Shown in pieces: positions 17,916 through 51,886 of a stretch of 64,000 bases of DNA. Within the stretch, counting starts at the first letter, position 1, and each line of letters opens with the position of its first letter. The notes under the pieces are model-generated. The model was not told the DNA's origin, made no database searches, and saw only the letters and a list, made by a program, of their open reading frames with translations. Both the position numbers and the translations under genes were made by a program. Origin of the DNA: Leptolyngbya sp. NIES-3755 (GTDB lineage Bacteria > Cyanobacteriota > Cyanobacteriia > Leptolyngbyales > Leptolyngbyaceae); contig AP017308.1 of the NCBI GenBank assembly GCA_001548435.1, positions 5,403,030 through 5,467,029 on the forward strand, written 5' to 3'.

Positions 17916-17953
17916 TCTTTCTCACCTCCTGATTTGGGATGTAGAGAATATCC

Positions 17954-18075
17954 AAAAACAAAACACTCGACCTAGTTAAAAGCCGAGTGTGAATGATTTC
18001 TTTAGAACACAATGAATGTGTCTGGAAAAATCAAACCTCGGCAGGACATTAAGGGGTAAACCACCTGCTGTCTTT
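17954..18075 (-). promoter_or_regulatory. L10 leader with attenuator hairpin
   Basis: Between rplA and rplJ the minus-strand RNA has CCTGCCGAGG (18036-18045) after GACAGCAGGTGGTTTACCCC, the conserved L10(L12)-binding region of ribosomal-protein leaders. Nearer rplJ lies a hairpin, ACACTCGGC/GTCGAGTGT in sense orientation (17963-17971 with 17982-17990), followed by a T-rich stretch (17954-17962). By known L10 leader behaviour, excess L10-L12 would favour repression or termination. Confidence 0.7.
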
Positions 18076-18105
18076 GGTTTGGATATTCAGTTGAAAAACT
18101 TTTGT

Positions 18106-37387: not shown

Positions 37388-38617
<1,230 letters not shown>

Positions 38618-38715
38618 GTTACATAATTCCTGGTTGTTGTAAGGGTGTACCGGGAGTCTATTGCCACAGCAAAACGAGAGGTATGACACCTCAACGTTTT
38701 TTCTTCAATTCACAG

Positions 38716-38786
38716 TGGTCACTGGTAGGACTCGAACCTACTTCATCTGCACGAAACAGATGCTTTCCCAATGAAGCAACAGACCT
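38716..38786 (-). tRNA. Degenerate tRNA-like element (anticodon position TCG)
   Basis: On the minus strand there is a good T arm (GTAGG-TTCGAGT-CCTAC), a good anticodon arm (ATCTG-TTTCGTG-CAGAT) and a D arm (GCTT-CATTGGGA-AAGC). The acceptor stem pairs badly: best alignment about 4 of 7, with missing bases between acceptor and D stem. The base after the anticodon is T, not a purine. It is probably a decayed tRNA or a tRNA-like structure. It lies about 100 nt upstream of tuf in the same direction. Confidence 0.5.
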
Positions 38787-39000: not shown

Positions 39001-40299
39001 ATGCCGTGGACATCTGAACAAGTGTTGGCTCTTGCCCCAGATGCGTCATCGGCAAAGAATGGGCGAGGATTGGCAACCTTAAGTAAATGGGCTACTTTAG
39101 GCAGTCATGAAACGTTCGTTTGGGGGGAATGTCAGGGGAGCGGCAAGAACCCTTATCGAACTCAGATTGATCTCAGCGAACCTGCCTTTCGATGTAGCTG
39201 TCCGAGTCGGAAATTTCCTTGTAAGCATGGATTGGGATTGTTTTTGATTTTGGCGGAACAATCGAATCAAATTGCTGAAAGTGAACCGCCTGATTGGGTA
39301 ACGGACTGGATAGAGAGTCGATCGCAAAAAGCAGAAAAGCAAGCTCAAAAGAAGGAACAAGACGCTGATCCAATTGCTCAAGCAAAGAGAGCCGCAGCCC
39401 GTCAAGAAAAAGTTAGTGCTGGAATTCAAGAACTTAGACTGTGGCTAGAAGATCGAATTCGACAAGGATTGATCGCAGTTCAGCAAGAGTCTTATCAAGT
39501 GTGGGATAGTATTGCAGCCCGAATGGTTGATGCTCAAGCGCCCGGACTCGCTCGAAGATTGAGAGAATTAGCAGGCATTGTTCATTTAGGTTCAAGTGGG
39601 CATCAACGATTACTCGAACAATTAGGACAGCTTTATTTAATTACAGAAGGCTATCAGCGAATTGAAAGCTTACCTTCCGAAGTTCAAGCCGATTTAAGAA
39701 CTCAAATTGGTTGGACAATGAGCCAAGAAGAAGTTTTCAAAGAGCCTTCGCACACTGATCTTTGGCTTGTCGTTGGACAGAGATCGGAAGTTGAAGAACG
39801 CTTGAAAGTTCGACGCACTTGGCTCTTTGGAATTCAATCAAATCGGTTTGCATTGTTACTAGACTTTGCTCATGGAAATCAACCGTTTGCCGATCATTGG
39901 ATGAGTGGAACTTGTTTAGAAGCAGAGATGGTATTTTATCCAAGTGCTTATCCATTGAGAGCATTGATTAAAACTCGACAGGAAGCAGCTCGACTGACGA
40001 AAGCACCTCCGGGAGTGAGTGTTTCAGAAGCGATCGGAAAGTATGGAAATGCGATCGCACAATGCCCTTGGATTGAACAAATGCCCATAATTTTAGAATC
40101 GGTAAATTTGGTGAGAAATAGCGATCGCTGGCTGTTGCAAGATTCAGCAGGACACAACTTGCCCTATCAGCTAGAAACTGACAACTGGGCACTGTTAGCC
40201 CTAAGTGGCGGACATCCCATGACTGTATTTGGAGAATGGGACGGTAAAAGATTTCGATTGATCAGTAGCTGGATAGGAGACGAACTTTATGGACTCTAG
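39001..40299 (+). CDS. SWIM zinc-finger protein, first gene of a five-gene system
   Basis: 432 aa from ATG 39001 (MPWTSEQVLALAPDASSAK); an ATG at 38953 is upstream in frame. The SWIM finger C-x-C-x(n)-C-x-H is FRCSCPSRKFPCKHGLGL near residues 61-78. The rest is a charged helical segment (SRSQKAEKQAQKKEQDADP) and a C-terminal beta-rich part. SWIM domains bind nucleic acid or protein. Its 3' end overlaps the DUF5691 gene by 11 nt, the first of several tight junctions in the block. Confidence 0.85.
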   Translation: MPWTSEQVLALAPDASSAKNGRGLATLSKWATLGSHETFVWGECQGSGKNPYRTQIDLSEPAFRCSCPSRKFPCKHGLGLFLILAEQSNQIAESEPPDWVTDWIESRSQKAEKQAQKKEQDADPIAQAKRAAARQEKVSAGIQELRLWLEDRIRQGLIAVQQESYQVWDSIAARMVDAQAPGLARRLRELAGIVHLGSSGHQRLLEQLGQLYLITEGYQRIESLPSEVQADLRTQIGWTMSQEEVFKEPSHTDLWLVVGQRSEVEERLKVRRTWLFGIQSNRFALLLDFAHGNQPFADHWMSGTCLEAEMVFYPSAYPLRALIKTRQEAARLTKAPPGVSVSEAIGKYGNAIAQCPWIEQMPIILESVNLVRNSDRWLLQDSAGHNLPYQLETDNWALLALSGGHPMTVFGEWDGKRFRLISSWIGDELYGL

Positions 40300-41803
40300 C
40301 TTGTGGAAAGACATCACTTCAGCCGCGCTGCTCGGTACAGAACGACAGCCCTTTAAGTTGATCGTGACATCGGGCAAACTTGGACAAATTTTACAAATGG
40401 ATAAAACGAGACCGCCTGAATCCGCTTTACTTCTATCTGCCGCAGTTCTTTCACTCTATCAACAAGCTGGACAACAACCTCAGAAAGATTTGACCGTTCC
40501 ATTTACTCCTTGCGATCTGAATGATCAACCGCGTTGTTCTTCTCGTGCTGCTAGTTTTTTACAGCAAATCCTTGAATCTAACCATTCTGAGCATTTATCC
40601 GAATGGTTAGAGCTTGCAGCACAAAAAAGACAAAGGGTTCCAGAACAGTGTTTACCGCGACTTTTAGCACTAGCAGCAAATCAACCGCAGAAAATTTTAC
40701 CTGTTTTAGGAGAGCGAGGACGCTGGTTATCGACTCAAAATCCAGCTTGGAACACAGTGATCGACAAACTAACCGAGATTGATTGGGACACCAGCACTGA
40801 GAAGGTTCGACTGGTTTATCTCATGCAATTGCGACAAGTTCAGCCAGATCAAGCCAGAGAACTCGTACAGTCTACCTGGAAAGAAGAATCGGCAGAGATG
40901 CGAACTCAGTTCCTTGAAGTTCTACAAACCGGATTGAGTATGGCGGATGAACCGTTTTTAGAAGAGCAGTTAAACGAGCGTAGCAAAACAGTTCGACGCA
41001 AAGCCGCTGATTTGCTGGTTCGTTTACCAGATTCTCGATATTGCGATCGCATGATTCAGCGTTTAGCTCCATTGATTCAATTAAAAGTCAAAACGCTTGA
41101 AATCACGCTCCCATCAGCTTGTGATAGTTCAATGCAGCGAGATGGAATTGAGCTAAAACCTCCAAATAATAGCCGTCATGGTGAGAAAGCTTGGTGGTTA
41201 TTCCAGTTAGTTGCTGCAACTCCGTTAGGCTTTTGGCAAACTCATCTAGGTTTAGCTAATATTGCAACCATCATTGATCGAGGGAGAACAAGTGGATGGT
41301 ACGCCGTTTTGCAAGAGGGCTGGCAACAAGCCGCAAAAGTTCAAAAGAACTCAGAATGGGCACAGGTGTTACTGGTTTCCCCTCAGTTTGTTGGATTAGC
41401 TGATTGGCGACCACTCGTAGGATTATTGCAACCTGAGCACCGTGATCAATGGCTCTGTCAACTCTTTCAAAAGACACCACGTGGTATCAAAGACCACTAT
41501 GTGCTCGCCGCCCTTGAAGAACTAGGAAAATTCGACCCGTATTGGAGCGAGGAGCTAGTTCAGCACATTCTAGAGAGTGTCTTTACTCATATTGCTGAGT
41601 TCAAAGACTACTGGGACTGGAAATTTGCGGATCTTCTAAAGGTTTGCGCTTTGCGGATTCCAAGTGGCATGATTTTTAGAGCCATCGAGTATTTGGAAAG
41701 CATTGTCAAAGATGACTTACCTTCATTCACACAAGAAGCCTTGAAATTCACGATCGCGCTCCTGAAATTCCGTCAAGATATGATCCAATCCTTCGAGAAC
41801 TAA
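40289..41803 (+). CDS. DUF5691 family protein
   Basis: 504 aa, helical, beginning MDSSLWKDITSAALLGTERQ, a hallmark opening for DUF5691. The middle contains HEAT-like helical repeats (for example LNERSKTVRRKAADLLVRLPDS). No catalytic motif is visible. It lies between the SWIM protein and the MoxR ATPase (2 nt spacing) in an order I know from several bacterial phyla. Role unknown; a scaffold is plausible. Confidence 0.82.
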   Translation: MDSSLWKDITSAALLGTERQPFKLIVTSGKLGQILQMDKTRPPESALLLSAAVLSLYQQAGQQPQKDLTVPFTPCDLNDQPRCSSRAASFLQQILESNHSEHLSEWLELAAQKRQRVPEQCLPRLLALAANQPQKILPVLGERGRWLSTQNPAWNTVIDKLTEIDWDTSTEKVRLVYLMQLRQVQPDQARELVQSTWKEESAEMRTQFLEVLQTGLSMADEPFLEEQLNERSKTVRRKAADLLVRLPDSRYCDRMIQRLAPLIQLKVKTLEITLPSACDSSMQRDGIELKPPNNSRHGEKAWWLFQLVAATPLGFWQTHLGLANIATIIDRGRTSGWYAVLQEGWQQAAKVQKNSEWAQVLLVSPQFVGLADWRPLVGLLQPEHRDQWLCQLFQKTPRGIKDHYVLAALEELGKFDPYWSEELVQHILESVFTHIAEFKDYWDWKFADLLKVCALRIPSGMIFRAIEYLESIVKDDLPSFTQEALKFTIALLKFRQDMIQSFEN

Positions 41804-41805
41804 CG

Positions 41806-42900
41806 ATGGCAAAAACAAAAGTGACTACTTTACTCCGTCAACACGTCGAACAGCAATTTGCTCAAGAACTGGCTGAACTCTCAAAATCAGATTCTCGTCA
41901 ACGTCCGCCGAATTGGAAGCTTTCACCTTGGGCAGTTTCTCTCTATCTCCTGGGTGGAAAGTTAGACAATGGCTTTGAAGTGATTCCGAAATATATTGGT
42001 AATCGGCGACTGATGGAAGTTGCGATCGCAACCCTCGCGACTGATCGCGCTCTTCTACTTTACGGGGTTCCGGGTACTGCAAAATCCTGGGTTTCTGAAC
42101 ATTTAGCCGCTGCTATCTCTGGTGATTCAACGCTGTTAATTCAAGGTACTGCTGGCACGAGCGAAGAAGCGATTCGATATGGATGGAACTATGCGCGATT
42201 GCTTGCAGAAGGACCTTCAATGGATGCTTTGGTTGCGAGTCCGATGATGCGATCGATGACCGATGGAAAGATTGCTCGAATCGAAGAATTAACGCGAATT
42301 CCGTCTGATGTACAAGATACACTGATCACGATTCTGTCTGAGAAAATCTTGCCGATTCCAGAACTGAATGGAGAAATTCAGGCGAACAAGGGCTTTAATG
42401 TGATTGCGACAGCGAATAATCGCGATCGAGGTGTGAACGAACTATCAAGCGCTCTAAAACGGCGATTCAACACAGTCGTTTTACCTGTTCCCGATAGTAT
42501 TGAATCAGAAGTTAAGATTGTTCGACAACGAGTTGAAAGTTTAGGTCGGGCACTAGAATTACCTGCGGAAGTGCCTGCGCTTGAAGAAATTCAGCGAGTT
42601 GTGACTATCTTTCGAGAGCTTCGGAATGGGATGACGAGTGATGGTAAAACGAGGCTAAAATCACCATCGGGAACATTGAGTACCGCAGAAGCGATTTCGG
42701 TTGTGAACAGTGGAATGGCGCTCTCGGCTCACTTTGGTGATGGTTCTTTGAAAGCAAGCGATCTGGTTTCTGGATTAGTTGGTGCAGTAGTGAAAGATCC
42801 CGTTCAAGATCAAGTGGTTTGGAAGGAATATCTTGAGACCGTTGTGAAAGAGCGCGATGGCTGGAAAGATCTGTATCGTGCAAGTCGGGAAATGCTCTAG
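41806..42900 (+). CDS. MoxR-type AAA+ ATPase
   Basis: 364 aa. Walker A is GVPGTAKSW, followed by a MoxR-like core; Walker B region KIARIEELTRIP, sensor 1 VIATANNRDRG, arginine-finger region ALKRRFNTVVLPVP. It ends with a helical lid. MoxR ATPases act with VWA proteins to insert metals or remodel complexes, and a VWA gene lies two genes downstream. No DNA-binding domain. It is probably the ATP-driven core of this block. Confidence 0.92.
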   Translation: MAKTKVTTLLRQHVEQQFAQELAELSKSDSRQRPPNWKLSPWAVSLYLLGGKLDNGFEVIPKYIGNRRLMEVAIATLATDRALLLYGVPGTAKSWVSEHLAAAISGDSTLLIQGTAGTSEEAIRYGWNYARLLAEGPSMDALVASPMMRSMTDGKIARIEELTRIPSDVQDTLITILSEKILPIPELNGEIQANKGFNVIATANNRDRGVNELSSALKRRFNTVVLPVPDSIESEVKIVRQRVESLGRALELPAEVPALEEIQRVVTIFRELRNGMTSDGKTRLKSPSGTLSTAEAISVVNSGMALSAHFGDGSLKASDLVSGLVGAVVKDPVQDQVVWKEYLETVVKERDGWKDLYRASREML

Positions 42901-42909
42901 GAACAAGCT

Positions 42910-45132
42910 ATGTCAATCCATGTTTTTGGAATTCGCCATCACGGTCCTGGTTCTGCTCGAAGTTTGCATCAAGCCTTGGAAACATTGCAGCCAGACATTG
43001 TTTTAGTTGAAGGTCCACCGGATGCAGAATCGCGGCTCCCATTGTTGATTCATCCTGAGATGCGTCCTCCGGTTGCGTTATTGCTTTATGTTGTAGATCA
43101 TCCAGAGCAAGCCGTTTACTATCCGTTTGCGGTCTTTTCTCCTGAGTGGCAAGCGATTCAATATGGACTTCAACATCAGATTCCGGTGCGGTTTATGGAT
43201 TTGCCGCAGTCGCACCAGTTTGCACTCACGCAAACTCAGCCAGAATTACCGCGATCGATAAAAATTGATCCCCTAAATCTACTAGCCGAAGCCGCAGGCT
43301 ATCAAGATGGCGAACGCTGGTGGGAACACTTGGTCGAACAACGTCAAGATAGCACCCAGCTATTTGCTGCAATTTTAGAAGCAATGACGGTTTTGCGGAA
43401 TGAAGTTGAGACGGATGATTGCTCGATCGAGAATTATCGAGAAGCTTACATGCGGAAAACCATTCGCGAAGCTGAAAAACAAGGATTCCAAAATATTGCG
43501 GTGGTCTGTGGAGCTTGGCACAGTCCTGCTTTAGTCAAAATGCCACCTGCAAAAGAAGATGCAGCACTGCTCAAAGGATTGCCCAAACTGAAAGTCGAAA
43601 CAACTTGGGTTCCTTGGACTTATGGGCGCTTATCGATGAGTAGCGGTTATGGTGCAGGCATTCATTCTCCAGGCTGGTATCACCATCTCTGGAAACAAGG
43701 AGAGAAAAAGAATACTTCGACGTTGAATAGTTCAATCCGATGGATGACGCAGGTTGCAAGATTGCTGCGGAAACAAGATTTAGATGCTTCTTCTGCCAGT
43801 GTGATCGAAGCAGTTCGACTCGCAGAAAGTTTGGCAGCATTACGCGATCGCGCTCTCCCTGGATTAGAAGAACTCAATGAAGCGACTCAAACCGTTCTCT
43901 GCTTCGGTGATTCACTTCCGATGCAATTAATCCATCAACAGTTAATTGTAGGAGAACGACTGGGCAAGGTTCCTGATGAAACTCCGATGGTTCCACTGCA
44001 ACAGGATCTTCAGAAGCAACAGAAGCGATTAAGACTCAAGCCTGAAGCGACCGAAACGAATTTAGAATTGGATTTACGCAAAGTAACGGATTTAGATCGA
44101 TCGCAGTTTCTCCATCGATTGCTGCTTCTTGGTCTTCCCTGGGGCAAAACTCAATCGGTGAGCAATGCGAAAGGAACATTTCGAGAATCTTGGAGATTGC
44201 ACTGGAAGCCTGAATTTACGCTGAAACTAATCGAGGCAGGCATTTGGGGAAATACGATCGAAGATGCTTCAAGTGCTGTGACGTGCGATCGAGCAAATCG
44301 GGCAAATCTTCCAGAGCTAACCAAACTGATTGATCAAACCTTACTCGCAAACTTACCGATCGCGATTTCGTATTTGATGACGCGGTTGGAATCCGAAGCC
44401 GCGATCGCATCAGATATGACGCATCTCATGGAAGCGTTACCGCCATTGGTAAACATTATTCGCTATGGCAATGTGCGACAGTTTGATGCTCAAATCGTTC
44501 AGCACGTCGTTGATGGATTGATTGCTCGGATTTGTATTGGTTTACCGATCGCAGTGAGTAGCCTAGATGATGATGCCGCTGCTAAGTTCTATGAGTTCAT
44601 TGTTTTAGTGAATAGCGCGATCGCATTACTACAGAACAATGAAGCTTTAGAGACATGGCGGCAAGTATTAGCAACGCTCTCAGATCAGAAAGGCTTACAT
44701 GGCTTGCTTGCAGGTCGATGCTGTCGATTGTTATTTGAAGCCAATTTCTTTGATACTGAAGAAACATCAAGACGATTAGGACTGGCACTATCAACAGCAA
44801 CTGAACCTGCTCAAGCTGCTGCTTGGATTGAAGGATTTCTTTCAGGCAGTGGACTCTTGCTACTGCACAATCTTGAACTTTGGAATGTTGTCGATCGATG
44901 GATCGTTCAATTGCCATCCGAAACATTCATCGCAATTCTGCCTTTGTTACGCCGAACTTTTTCCACCTTTGCAGCCCCGGAACGGCGACAAATGGGCGAA
45001 CGAGTCCGACAGGGAGAAGTAACTGTTCCAACGCAGACCAGTGAATTGAATGTCGATGCTTGCACCGCGCTCCGCGTTCGAGCCGATGCAATCCTGCCTT
45101 TACTCGCTCAGTTATTAGGAGTTTCATCATGA
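42910..45132 (+). CDS. DUF5682 family protein
   Basis: 740 aa, opening MSIHVFGIRHHGPGSARSLHQ, the DUF5682 signature. The first ~230 residues contain LVEGPPDAESRLPLLI and a later VVCGAWHSPAL, reminiscent of TraB/ChaN-like folds with conserved His and Glu. The remaining two thirds are helical. The stop overlaps the VWA start as ATGA. Function unknown; the conserved His/Glu pattern would fit a hydrolase, which is inference. Confidence 0.82.
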   Translation: MSIHVFGIRHHGPGSARSLHQALETLQPDIVLVEGPPDAESRLPLLIHPEMRPPVALLLYVVDHPEQAVYYPFAVFSPEWQAIQYGLQHQIPVRFMDLPQSHQFALTQTQPELPRSIKIDPLNLLAEAAGYQDGERWWEHLVEQRQDSTQLFAAILEAMTVLRNEVETDDCSIENYREAYMRKTIREAEKQGFQNIAVVCGAWHSPALVKMPPAKEDAALLKGLPKLKVETTWVPWTYGRLSMSSGYGAGIHSPGWYHHLWKQGEKKNTSTLNSSIRWMTQVARLLRKQDLDASSASVIEAVRLAESLAALRDRALPGLEELNEATQTVLCFGDSLPMQLIHQQLIVGERLGKVPDETPMVPLQQDLQKQQKRLRLKPEATETNLELDLRKVTDLDRSQFLHRLLLLGLPWGKTQSVSNAKGTFRESWRLHWKPEFTLKLIEAGIWGNTIEDASSAVTCDRANRANLPELTKLIDQTLLANLPIAISYLMTRLESEAAIASDMTHLMEALPPLVNIIRYGNVRQFDAQIVQHVVDGLIARICIGLPIAVSSLDDDAAAKFYEFIVLVNSAIALLQNNEALETWRQVLATLSDQKGLHGLLAGRCCRLLFEANFFDTEETSRRLGLALSTATEPAQAAAWIEGFLSGSGLLLLHNLELWNVVDRWIVQLPSETFIAILPLLRRTFSTFAAPERRQMGERVRQGEVTVPTQTSELNVDACTALRVRADAILPLLAQLLGVSS

Positions 45133-46277
45133 CGACTGAATCAGAACGGTTACGACGCTGGCGTTTGCTCTTAGGGGGAGGATCGGCAGATGGTATTGGA
45201 ATTCCAGGCGGATTAAGTGCTGGAGATCAAGCGATCGACCAAACACTTGAAGCACTCTATGACAGCGATCGATCAGGTGGATTAGGCGCATCTTCTCCCA
45301 AAGTGGCACGATGGCTCGGAGACATTCGCACCTATTTCCCTACCTCAGTCGTTAAAGTGATGCAGCAAGACGCTTTAGAGCGATTGAATTTGCGCCAAAT
45401 GTTACTTGAACCCGAACTATTAGAAGCGGTTGAGCCTGATGTTCACTTAGTCTCGAATCTACTATCTCTGAGCAATGTAATGCCCGGAAAGACTAAAGAG
45501 ACTGCACGAATTGTCGTTCGTCGAGTCGTGGAAGAATTGATCCGAAAGCTCGAAAATCCAACTCGTCAAGCTGTTCTCGGCAGTCTCAATCGTGCTATTC
45601 GGAACAATCGCCCGCGTCATTCTGAAATCGACTGGCATCGAACGATTCGAGCAAATTTGAAGCACTATCAACCAGAGTACAAAACGATTATTCCTGAGCG
45701 TCGAATTGGGTTTGGGCGCAAACGTTCATCGCTACGAAACATTATTCTCTGTGTTGATCAAAGCGGCTCAATGGCAACTTCTGTCGTTTATGCTGGAATT
45801 TTTAGTGCCGTTCTCGCTTCACTCCCTGCGGTCAAAACGAATCTCGTTGTATTCGATACGGCTGTGGTTGATTTAACTGAAATGCTCCAAGATCCAGTCG
45901 AAGTTCTGTTTGGAACACAGTTAGGTGGCGGAACAGATATCAATCTAGCTCTATCTTACTGTCAAGGATTGGTCAGACAACCCCAGGAAACAATCTTAGT
46001 GTTGATTAGTGATTTGTATGAAGGTGGCAATCAAACTGAAATGAGAAAACGCATGAGTGCGATCGTGTCATCCGGTATCCAATTCATTACGCTGTTGGCA
46101 CTCAATGACGATGGCGCACCTTACTATGATCATAGCAATGCAAAGTTTCTGAGTTCTTTAGGCGTTCCTGCATTTGCTTGTACTCCCGATCTGTTTCCTG
46201 ATCTGATGGCAGCCGCGATCAATCGTCAGGATTTGACTCAATGGGCAGCTACACAAGACATTGCGATCGCATCTTAA
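45129..46277 (+). CDS. VWA-domain protein, last gene of the five-gene system
   Basis: 382 aa from ATG 45129, which overlaps the DUF5682 stop (ATGA); the frame is open to 45060 but those residues lie in DUF5682. The C-terminal half is a von Willebrand A domain with an intact metal-ion-dependent adhesion site: DQSGSMATS (DxSxS), GGGTDIN (Thr) and ISDLYEGG (Asp). The N-terminal half is helical. VWA proteins are standard partners of MoxR ATPases. It converges with the amidase-like gene with a 4-nt overlap. Confidence 0.9.
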   Translation: MTTESERLRRWRLLLGGGSADGIGIPGGLSAGDQAIDQTLEALYDSDRSGGLGASSPKVARWLGDIRTYFPTSVVKVMQQDALERLNLRQMLLEPELLEAVEPDVHLVSNLLSLSNVMPGKTKETARIVVRRVVEELIRKLENPTRQAVLGSLNRAIRNNRPRHSEIDWHRTIRANLKHYQPEYKTIIPERRIGFGRKRSSLRNIILCVDQSGSMATSVVYAGIFSAVLASLPAVKTNLVVFDTAVVDLTEMLQDPVEVLFGTQLGGGTDINLALSYCQGLVRQPQETILVLISDLYEGGNQTEMRKRMSAIVSSGIQFITLLALNDDGAPYYDHSNAKFLSSLGVPAFACTPDLFPDLMAAAINRQDLTQWAATQDIAIAS

Positions 46278-47731
46278 CTGAGTCGATCGAATTGATATTG
46301 ATAAAGCTGTTTCAAAGTCAAAACGATCTTTCGAGAGTAAAGCGGATCAGCAGAATAGAACGCTCCTAACTGTTCGATTTGGGGAGCAATGCCTCGTGCA
46401 ATAAAGCGAAATCTTGGAGTCACCAATTCTTGTGTGAATGGCTCTGTGCTGGCATATGTTTTCAACATCTGAATATGAGCACGAACTCCCGTTCTCGCAT
46501 TCGGAAAAGTTGCGGTATCAGAAGCTCCAACTTCTCTCAAAGCAGCAAAATTATTTTGAGTCGGTTGTACCGTCCTACCAAATCGAAAAAAATCGGTTTC
46601 TAACAACGCTTGAGTGACTGCAATATCCGGATTCACACCTTCGATCGAGGCTTCTTGCAAATACAAATCAATGATTTCAGGAAAGGTTTTCAGCGCTTGT
46701 GGATTGTTCTGCTGTAAAAAGGCTTGTATGGTTGCTCTTGATAAATATCCCCGTCCCATCACGCGCCCAATTCGAGTCGGAGTCTTTGTTTGCAGCACGA
46801 GTGTTCGTTCTGGCTGATTCCAACCCACGACGACTCCTGCATTGCGTAAATCGATCGCCCTGACATAAGTTGTATTGCGATAAGTGAGTAATTGCGCTGT
46901 TCTGGGACGCTTAAAATTAATCGCTCCATTGAGTAATGCGATCGGTAAATAAGCATTGCCTCCCAGAACAAAGCCTTGATTCTCAGAAAGCTCTCCATTC
47001 AAGCGAATCCGAATCGGAACTTGAGCGGTTGTCGATCGCGCTTGAGCAGGTCTAGGTGCAAATCCATTCGCGATTCCTTGTGCGATCGCAGTAGATCGAT
47101 TCAACAAAATCGTGCGATCCTGCGGACTGGTCGAAAACCCGATCGACAATACGATCGCTGGAATCCGAAGCTGACGGACAAAAGGAAGACGACCAAATGC
47201 AGTTTCGGTATCCGGTCGCGCTCCTCGATTCACCAAATTTGGAACTGTGAGCACAATCCGCTGAACCAGGTCTTGAGCTTGCTGTTGCCGCTTTAGATCT
47301 CCTGCCCGATAAAATGCTGCTGTCCCTCTCGCATCCGGGTTCAGAAACGCATCTGTTTGCAGCGATAACGCCAAAGTACCAGGAGTTGCACGTCGATTAA
47401 TCCACCCGATCGCACTCGCTGAATCCAATCCAGGCGGCACAATTTGAACCGTTAACCCTTTCGATCGAAGTTCTGCTGCCACTTGATTTTGCAGTTTGAC
47501 CAATGCCGCCTGAACCTGTGGATTACTCGTTCTAGACGGCGTGAATAGAATGATTTGCCGAATCTCTTCCGGGTCTCGCACTGCTGGATTTGGGCGCGTT
47601 GAATCGGGCGATACCGGCATCGATCGCTCTGGTGTGACTGCTCGATCGAGATTCGCTTGAGCAATTAGGTTTTGACAAAATTGGGTTTCGGCACGACTAT
47701 CCTCCGGGCAGTAACTCGACTCGAAAATCAT
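46274..47731 (-). CDS. Cell-wall amidase/glucosaminidase-like protein
   Basis: 485 aa from ATG 47731 (MIFESSYCPEDSR); the frame extends to 47794. Residues about 55-225 resemble an N-acetylmuramoyl-L-alanine amidase (Amidase_3) fold: IILFTPSRTSNPQ, ALSLQTDAFLNP and IPAIVLSIGFSTSPQDR. However, the usual zinc-binding His/Glu are not obvious (TPS in place of H-G), so that domain may be inactive. A copper-amine-oxidase-N-like stretch (GGNAYLPIALLNGAINFK) and a C-terminal glucosaminidase-like domain (VTQALLETDFFRFG, NNFAAL) follow. No signal peptide is evident at this start. Confidence 0.75.
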   Translation of the reverse strand: MIFESSYCPEDSRAETQFCQNLIAQANLDRAVTPERSMPVSPDSTRPNPAVRDPEEIRQIILFTPSRTSNPQVQAALVKLQNQVAAELRSKGLTVQIVPPGLDSASAIGWINRRATPGTLALSLQTDAFLNPDARGTAAFYRAGDLKRQQQAQDLVQRIVLTVPNLVNRGARPDTETAFGRLPFVRQLRIPAIVLSIGFSTSPQDRTILLNRSTAIAQGIANGFAPRPAQARSTTAQVPIRIRLNGELSENQGFVLGGNAYLPIALLNGAINFKRPRTAQLLTYRNTTYVRAIDLRNAGVVVGWNQPERTLVLQTKTPTRIGRVMGRGYLSRATIQAFLQQNNPQALKTFPEIIDLYLQEASIEGVNPDIAVTQALLETDFFRFGRTVQPTQNNFAALREVGASDTATFPNARTGVRAHIQMLKTYASTEPFTQELVTPRFRFIARGIAPQIEQLGAFYSADPLYSRKIVLTLKQLYQYQFDRLS

Positions 47732-47794
47732 GTGACACTTTTGCAATGTTGACAGTCTTTCTCGTCTTGGTAGAGAGACAAAAAAGACGACCAA

Positions 47795-50943: not shown

Positions 50944-51408
50944 TCAAAAGTCCGTTGGCTCTTGACTGAGCAGTGCCAAAGCCTTAATCTCTCGACACAC
51001 TCGCACTAAAAGTCGATTTCGCTCTCCTGGATTCAGTAGATCAAGCGTTTGAGTTGGATCATTGATTGCCTGATATTTTTCAATCTCTGTCTCGTCATAA
51101 AGGCTGTGACTGATATGCAAGCTAACCACAACTAAACCTCCCTGTTCAGCCGCTTTTAGCAAGGGAGGCAATTCATGTTCTGCAATGAAATCAGATGCCA
51201 AAAAATCAGGGCTAACTAGCAAAATTGCAACACAGGCTCGATCTAAAGCTTGAGCAATTTCAGATCGCCATTGCTGACCCGTTCTGATTCTAGTATCATC
51301 CCAGACTTCAACGGGTAATTTCTTCTCAAGCGGCTTGAGCATTGTCCGAAGCGCAGTTAGCCACTTCTTGTCTTTGTGACTGTAGCTAATAAAAATCAGA
51401 TCTCGCAT
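50944..51408 (-). CDS. Stand-alone TIR-domain protein B
   Basis: 154 aa consisting of one TIR domain: box 1 [30 protein letters not shown] and [23 protein letters not shown], with the Glu expected at the NADase position. There is no other domain. It begins 4 nt after the upstream TIR gene (same strand), so the two are probably co-expressed. TIR proteins of this type are often immune effectors that cleave NAD+ or make nucleotide signals; here that is inference. Confidence 0.85.
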
Positions 51409-51412
51409 GATG

Positions 51413-51886
51413 TTACGGATCGCTAACTGCGGCTTGCGCTTTTAACTGTTCTGCAACTTTCTGAATGGATCTTGCGACGCTCAGAAAAGCAGCATCCCTA
51501 TCTTCCCAGAGCGTAATTGGCTTCCCATTATCTGGAAGACTTTGCAAATGAGAAAATGGCGAGTCAGACCAGTCTACAGGTCGCAGCATCACCGGAATGA
51601 CATAAGCTTGTCCTGTGTTGTGACGTTTCAGAACTTCCCTTACCTCTACTGAAGAATAATCTGAGGCTAGGAAATCTGCACTTAGTGCTAGAAGAATAAT
51701 ATCGGCTGAATCAAGATACGAGACGATCGCTTTATCCCATTCTGTCCCAGCCTCAATCGACTGATCTGTCCAGACTTGAATCACACCTCGCCGTCTCAAA
51801 GCAGCGACATAAGCGGTTAGCTGATCAATCAGTGCCTGGTCTTTGTGAGAATAAGACAAGAACACCCTTACTCCTTCTCTGTTCAT
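51413..51886 (-). CDS. Stand-alone TIR-domain protein A
   Basis: 157 aa, one TIR domain: VRVFLSYSHKDQALIDQL, WTDQSIEAGTEWDKAIVSYL, ILLALSADFLASDYSSVEVREVL with the candidate catalytic Glu, and AYVIPVMLRPVDW. It resembles the downstream TIR protein in layout but with low identity, so it is not a recent duplicate. The pair has no adjacent sensor, STAND or Argonaute gene. Confidence 0.87.
   Translation of the reverse strand: MNREGVRVFLSYSHKDQALIDQLTAYVAALRRRGVIQVWTDQSIEAGTEWDKAIVSYLDSADIILLALSADFLASDYSSVEVREVLKRHNTGQAYVIPVMLRPVDWSDSPFSHLQSLPDNGKPITLWEDRDAAFLSVARSIQKVAEQLKAQAAVSDP

Follow-up and report, generated by a model that had tools for sequence, protein, structure and literature searches.

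The window analysed here is the whole stretch of 64,000 nucleotides from the cyanobacterium Leptolyngbya sp. NIES-3755, and our subject is a set of five genes at positions 39001-46277, all on the + strand. The first gene (39001..40299, 432 amino acids) codes for a SWIM zinc-finger protein (Pfam SWIM, 7e-5, 22.7 bits against a cut-off of 19.6); its start ATG at 39001 has a GGAG upstream and agrees with the N-termini of homologues. The second (40289..41803, 504 amino acids) codes for DUF5691 (Pfam 4e-127), a putative HEAT-like helical scaffold with weak similarity to HEAT_2. Then follow a YehL-type MoxR AAA+ ATPase (41806..42900, 364 amino acids, Pfam AAA_5 1e-37), a DUF5682 protein (42910..45132, 740 amino acids, Pfam 3e-287) and a VWA_CoxE protein (45129..46277, 382 amino acids, Pfam 2.5e-49) with an intact metal ion-dependent adhesion site (MIDAS). 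The four junctions are an overlap of 11 nucleotides, gaps of 2 and 9 nucleotides and an overlap of 4 nucleotides (ATGA). An earlier note, made from the sequence, had given the same five open reading frames and four junctions, and the search for frames and Pfam families found all of them as described there; its view that the set contains a chaperone-type MoxR/VWA pair is likewise borne out.

The motifs expected of the components are present. In the alignment of homologues the Walker A (GVPGTAKS) and Walker B (IARxEEL) motifs of MoxR are intact and near-invariant, and so is the zinc motif CxCx6CxH of the SWIM protein (CSCPSRKFPCKH). The MIDAS of the VWA protein (DQSGS / GGGTDI / SDLYEGG) is conserved, its DxSxS being invariant in 40 sequences. 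By entropy MoxR is the slowest evolving component (0.94 bits), followed by VWA (1.15), DUF5682 (1.64), SWIM (1.93) and, as the fastest, DUF5691 (2.55), in alignments which differ in depth and selection; a ranking with MoxR lowest and DUF5691 highest fits a constant motor and a divergent adaptor.

For the survey of gene neighbourhoods 168 distinct loci were compared, including loci taken from whole genomes. All five genes are present in 92 of them, and in every one of these 92 the order is SWIM-DUF5691-MoxR-DUF5682-VWA; two loci (L061, L071) show DUF5691 first solely through an over-long open frame, and a DUF4132 gene is added at the end in three of the full loci. The titles of the 80 loci listed, out of 544 relatives in one scan, name Cyanobacteria, Acidobacteria, Abditibacteria, Chloroflexi, Planctomycetes, Verrucomicrobia, Bacteroidetes and Proteobacteria, i.e., at least eight phyla. 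Because the same genes occur in one order across phyla the set is not a chance grouping, and the joint conservation on which the earlier note had staked its proposal of a five-gene system is found.

A sister system is present in Escherichia coli K-12, which holds yehI, yehK, yehL, yehM, yehP and yehQ. The window MoxR protein is 42% identical to YehL over 354 amino acids (E 4e-82), the DUF5682 protein is 29% identical to its orthologue YehM and the VWA protein 36% identical to its orthologue YehP. No BLAST alignment was obtained between the window SWIM protein and YehQ; the hhalign profile comparison gives a probability of 91 over 294 columns, which suggests that the SWIM protein is a distant homologue of YehQ. 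YehL is one of seven published MoxR subfamilies, which were defined by sequence and local gene structure (PMC3893208). The window MoxR is close to YehL and has its Walker A and B motifs, and the order MoxR-DUF5682-VWA is that of yehLMP. As judged by pairwise identity, motifs and gene order, the window set is thus the cyanobacterial version of a group which already has a name, the YehL subfamily of MoxR/VWA systems. The earlier note had called it a system of unknown function; this holds in so far as no experimental role was found, but the named subfamily with its E. coli sister had been overlooked. The two differ in the position of the remaining genes: in E. coli the SWIM protein (YehQ) is larger and comes last and DUF4132 (YehI) lies upstream, whereas the window has SWIM-DUF5691 upstream. 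The genome-reduced strain DGF-298 lacks the yehI-yehQ block, which is therefore dispensable there.

Comparison of the loci gave four forms. Type I is the form of the window. Type II consists of DUF4132 (often WGR-DUF4132), MoxR, DUF5682, VWA and YehQ (L218, L219, L171, L213 and E. coli). Type III, found in planctomycetes, has SWIM, a HEAT_2 protein, MoxR, DUF5682 and VWA (L159, L160, L162), and type IV has VWA, MoxR and a divergent DUF5682 (L197, L198, L201, L202, L221, L222). In four of the type IV loci (L197, L198, L201, L202) an ADP-ribosylglycohydrolase gene lies nearby, and a protein of 450-490 amino acids that has no family assignment is encoded just upstream. Across the four types MoxR-DUF5682-VWA is constant and the other genes are exchanged. 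Where operons are split, SWIM and DUF5691 are still adjacent (L258, L260) and so are MoxR, DUF5682 and VWA (L228, L154); furthermore, fusion proteins combine SWIM with DUF5691 in two loci (L033, L077) and with HEAT repeats in one (L165). Split operons and fusions together support two physical modules, a SWIM-HEAT pair and a MoxR-DUF5682-VWA core. The helical scaffold proposed in the earlier note for DUF5691 is supported by the weak HEAT_2 similarity and by the HEAT_2 proteins which replace DUF5691 in planctomycetes. An hhalign comparison of DUF5691 and DUF4132 was not significant, and DUF4132 is therefore regarded as a positional and not a homologous replacement.

The type II partner WGR-DUF4132 (MolR) could be taken to mark a role in the handling of damaged DNA, which would make the whole a DNA-damage or general stress machine. 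It accompanies the core in type II loci, and depletion of the DdrO repressor in Deinococcus leads to a rise of WGR and DUF4132 genes (PMC8533742). However, those Deinococcus genes have no demonstrated link to the MoxR-DUF5682-VWA core and type I loci, that of the window among them, have no WGR; we find this explanation quite improbable.

DUF5691 and window-type DUF5682 occur together also at the level of genomes. DUF5691 is above cut-off in 17 of 71 cyanobacteria, and window-type DUF5682 is found in 17/17 of these and in 0/54 of the others (Fisher 1e-16, a value which overstates independence given the kinship among the genomes). Wide separation of the genes within a genome (L255-L257, L264) does not break this co-occurrence. 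The distribution of the family is patchy: it is above cut-off in 15/386 cyanobacteria, 7/296 Bacteroidota, 27/246 Planctomycetota, 33/251 Chloroflexota and 14/398 Pseudomonadota. In the genus of the window itself the window type is present in two genomes, the E. coli type in two and none in four.

Patchiness and the replacement of type I by type II or by nothing within one genus are what could be expected of an anti-phage or other conflict system, in which the accessory genes would sense infection and activate DUF5682 as effector. The MoxR-vWA ternary conflict systems (Kaur et al., 2020, PMC7159879) share with the window set this patchiness, a MoxR and VWA core with further proteins and, in some of them, the GXXXTAKS variant of the P-loop found in our MoxR. 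In addition, a protein of the ternary systems, bpX1, adjoins the set in Niastella, and the window has a pair of TIR genes at a distance of about 5 kb from the operon. In contrast to the ternary systems no VMAP, iSTAND or FtsH component and no swapped effector domains were found; the VWA protein of 382 amino acids has no beta-propeller and the bpMoxR profile gives 22.8 bits against a cut-off of 27. The set lacks a variable effector domain, and MoxR and VWA are its most conserved and not its diversifying members. None of the five proteins has a PADLOC match at E values of 0.001 or less, and five neighbours gave a single irrelevant desaturase match. PADLOC and Pfam searches of the 110 nearest flanking proteins, which have no random-genome baseline, showed no clear defence-island signal; the PADLOC matches were scattered, to models also fitting common families (e.g., PD-T4-6 kinase, AriA ATPase, SspA, DndA). 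The suggestion of a conflict system in the earlier note is thus unsupported, and we regard it as distinctly unlikely.

The reading which we favour, and consider probable, is that the set encodes an accessory YehL-type MoxR/VWA remodelling machine of two modules. MoxR/VWA pairs that have been studied work through peptide capture by the VWA protein and remodelling of the client by the ring of MoxR (PMC7159879). By analogy the core would consist of MoxR as an ATP-driven ring, VWA as a co-chaperone capturing peptides by its MIDAS, and DUF5682 as a helical-repeat arm bearing a putative hydrolase domain of TIKI/TraB type. The targeting module, i.e., the SWIM protein and a HEAT-like scaffold, would bring in the substrate; the scaffold would be DUF5691 in the window and, in the sister forms, the HEAT_2 protein or probably WGR-DUF4132. 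VWA would then engage the substrate, MoxR would pull or twist it, and its cleavage or modification may fall to DUF5682.

The MoxR-VWA chaperone pairs NorQ/NorD, CoxD/CoxE and RavA/ViaA resemble the window set in having an AAA+ MoxR ATPase with a VWA partner carrying a MIDAS; they differ in having no SWIM, DUF5691 or DUF5682, and their known clients are not seen near this system. An extension of the likeness would make the set a chaperone for insertion of a cofactor or metal like NorQ/NorD and CoxD/CoxE, the core opening one client enzyme and the other genes being client-specific adaptors. The window VWA belongs to the CoxE family, NorQD drives metal insertion (PMC13036017, PMC9976466), and yehM was among the genes mutated in E. 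coli evolved under copper (PMC12409786). The evidence for copper is a single list of mutations with no test behind it, however, and no metalloenzyme gene recurs beside the loci, where a dedicated client would be expected; we hold metal insertion to be unlikely.

The AlphaFold2 model of DUF5682 (predicted local distance difference test, pLDDT, 92.2) has an alpha/beta domain at about residues 1-250, followed by a long helical-repeat arm. The domain carries the motifs GxRHH (7-11), EGPPD with E34, DLP (97-99) and GAWH (201-204); H10/H11, E34 and H204 are conserved and the order of His, Glu and His motifs is that of ChaN and TraB. The catalytic signature of the TIKI/TraB/ChaN/Ere superfamily is a 2His/2Glu motif (PMC6254334). 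DUF5682 differs from the superfamily in that the first Glu, two residues before the first His, is missing, that no profile match is significant and that the arm of 500 helical-repeat residues is added. In structure comparison residues 1-216 match 7w5z_E best (Z 9.6, 189 aligned residues, root mean square deviation 4.7). This chain belongs to Tetrahymena complex IV, one of whose subunits is of the TraB family (PMC10060162); chain E may be that subunit. Foldseek found no match for DUF5682 at E <= 0.001, the search being swamped by helical repeats. A profile search of solved structures gave nothing significant for DUF5682, SWIM, DUF5691 or VWA; for MoxR it finds Midasin. It is plausible, though not proven, that residues 1-216 hold a TIKI/TraB-like hydrolase domain; for the TraB/ChaN likeness proposed in the earlier note the order of the conserved motifs and the best fold match are in favour and the profile comparison is not significant.

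The AlphaFold2 model of the SWIM protein (pLDDT 92.5) has the SWIM domain at the N-terminus, a helical middle and a possible tandem OB-like domain at the C-terminus. In structure comparisons residues 1-94 match ZSWIM8 (Z 9.4) and residues 245-428 match the OB folds of RPA, SSB and LysRS (Z 6-8); Foldseek gave no match at E <= 0.001. With such a fold the protein may bind nucleic acid, but OB folds are common. Among the genes near the 168 loci the RNA ligase RtcB is the sole single-copy, non-superfamily gene which recurs across unrelated phyla. It was found within 7 kb of 7/168 loci in four phyla, at distances of 0.7-6.2 kb; about 0.19 loci are expected if one copy is assumed in 60% of genomes of 5.5 Mb, in a test chosen post hoc. 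The match to an RtcR-like regulator is strong in L070 and truncated in L086, and the weaker matches to the RtcR profile are probably generic sigma-54 activators. SWIM, the OB-like fold and the RtcB neighbours are the reasons for guessing at an RNA-protein or translation-related substrate, and hydrolase activity is a guess as well. The boldest version would be a surveillance machine for ribonucleoproteins, in which a SWIM/OB-HEAT receptor picks damaged or stalled RNA-protein complexes and the MoxR/VWA motor feeds them to a TIKI-type hydrolase, alongside repair by RtcB and with receptors interchangeable across bacteria; to this we give little credence.

Several points weigh against the two-module machine as drawn here. 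The idea of DUF5682 as an enzyme is a guess from motifs and one structural match, and its profile is not significantly similar to ChaN (hhalign E 0.09) or TraB (E 0.12), a test of little power since ChaN against TraB is itself not clear (E 0.014). The OB matches of the SWIM protein have Z values (6-8) that common arrangements also reach. RtcB does not occur around the set in the window, its orientations are mixed elsewhere and the expectation rests on an assumed copy rate. Finally, the literature gave no biochemistry or phenotype for any member, the yeh genes included; a full-text search, which covered papers outside subscription, found none naming DUF5682 or DUF5691, and YehL appears merely as a listed subfamily.

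The comparison places the five genes of the cyanobacterium and the uncharacterised yeh operon of E. coli in a single two-module superfamily, and an E. coli deletion strain could serve to find the function of both. DUF5682 and DUF5691 gain concrete, testable roles. MoxR/VWA pairs are widespread, but to our knowledge few of their clients are known.

Some observations concern the surroundings of the set. In the Niastella loci L055, L066 and L081 the bpX1 gene of the MoxR-vWA-beta-propeller ternary systems is directly upstream of SWIM, and in six Chloroflexota loci (L051, L174, L181, L182, L184, L186) a divergent Hsp20 gene lies upstream of the set. In the window the TIR-domain genes are two small adjacent genes at 50944-51886 (-), downstream of the operon. 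Convergent with the VWA gene is a TftA-like amidase/glucosaminidase gene at 46274-47794 (-), with 432 bits against an NCBIfam cut-off of 500. It also adjoins the five genes in one congener (G003); in six congeners it has no shared neighbours, and therefore a clean empty site could not be recognised. The operon is closely preceded by a second EF-Tu gene at 37388-38689 (-), 74% identical to another copy in the same genome (G000:C1:2651308-2652546), which is probably the housekeeping gene; a search of seven congeners revealed no second copy comparable to it. Between the extra EF-Tu gene and the operon lies a degenerate tRNA-like sequence at 38722-38782 (-), which is not called by ARAGORN and scores 29.8 bits with the Rfam tRNA model against a cut-off of 29. 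A ribosomal protein L10 leader (Rfam RF00557) is located at 17949-18095 (-) in the window.

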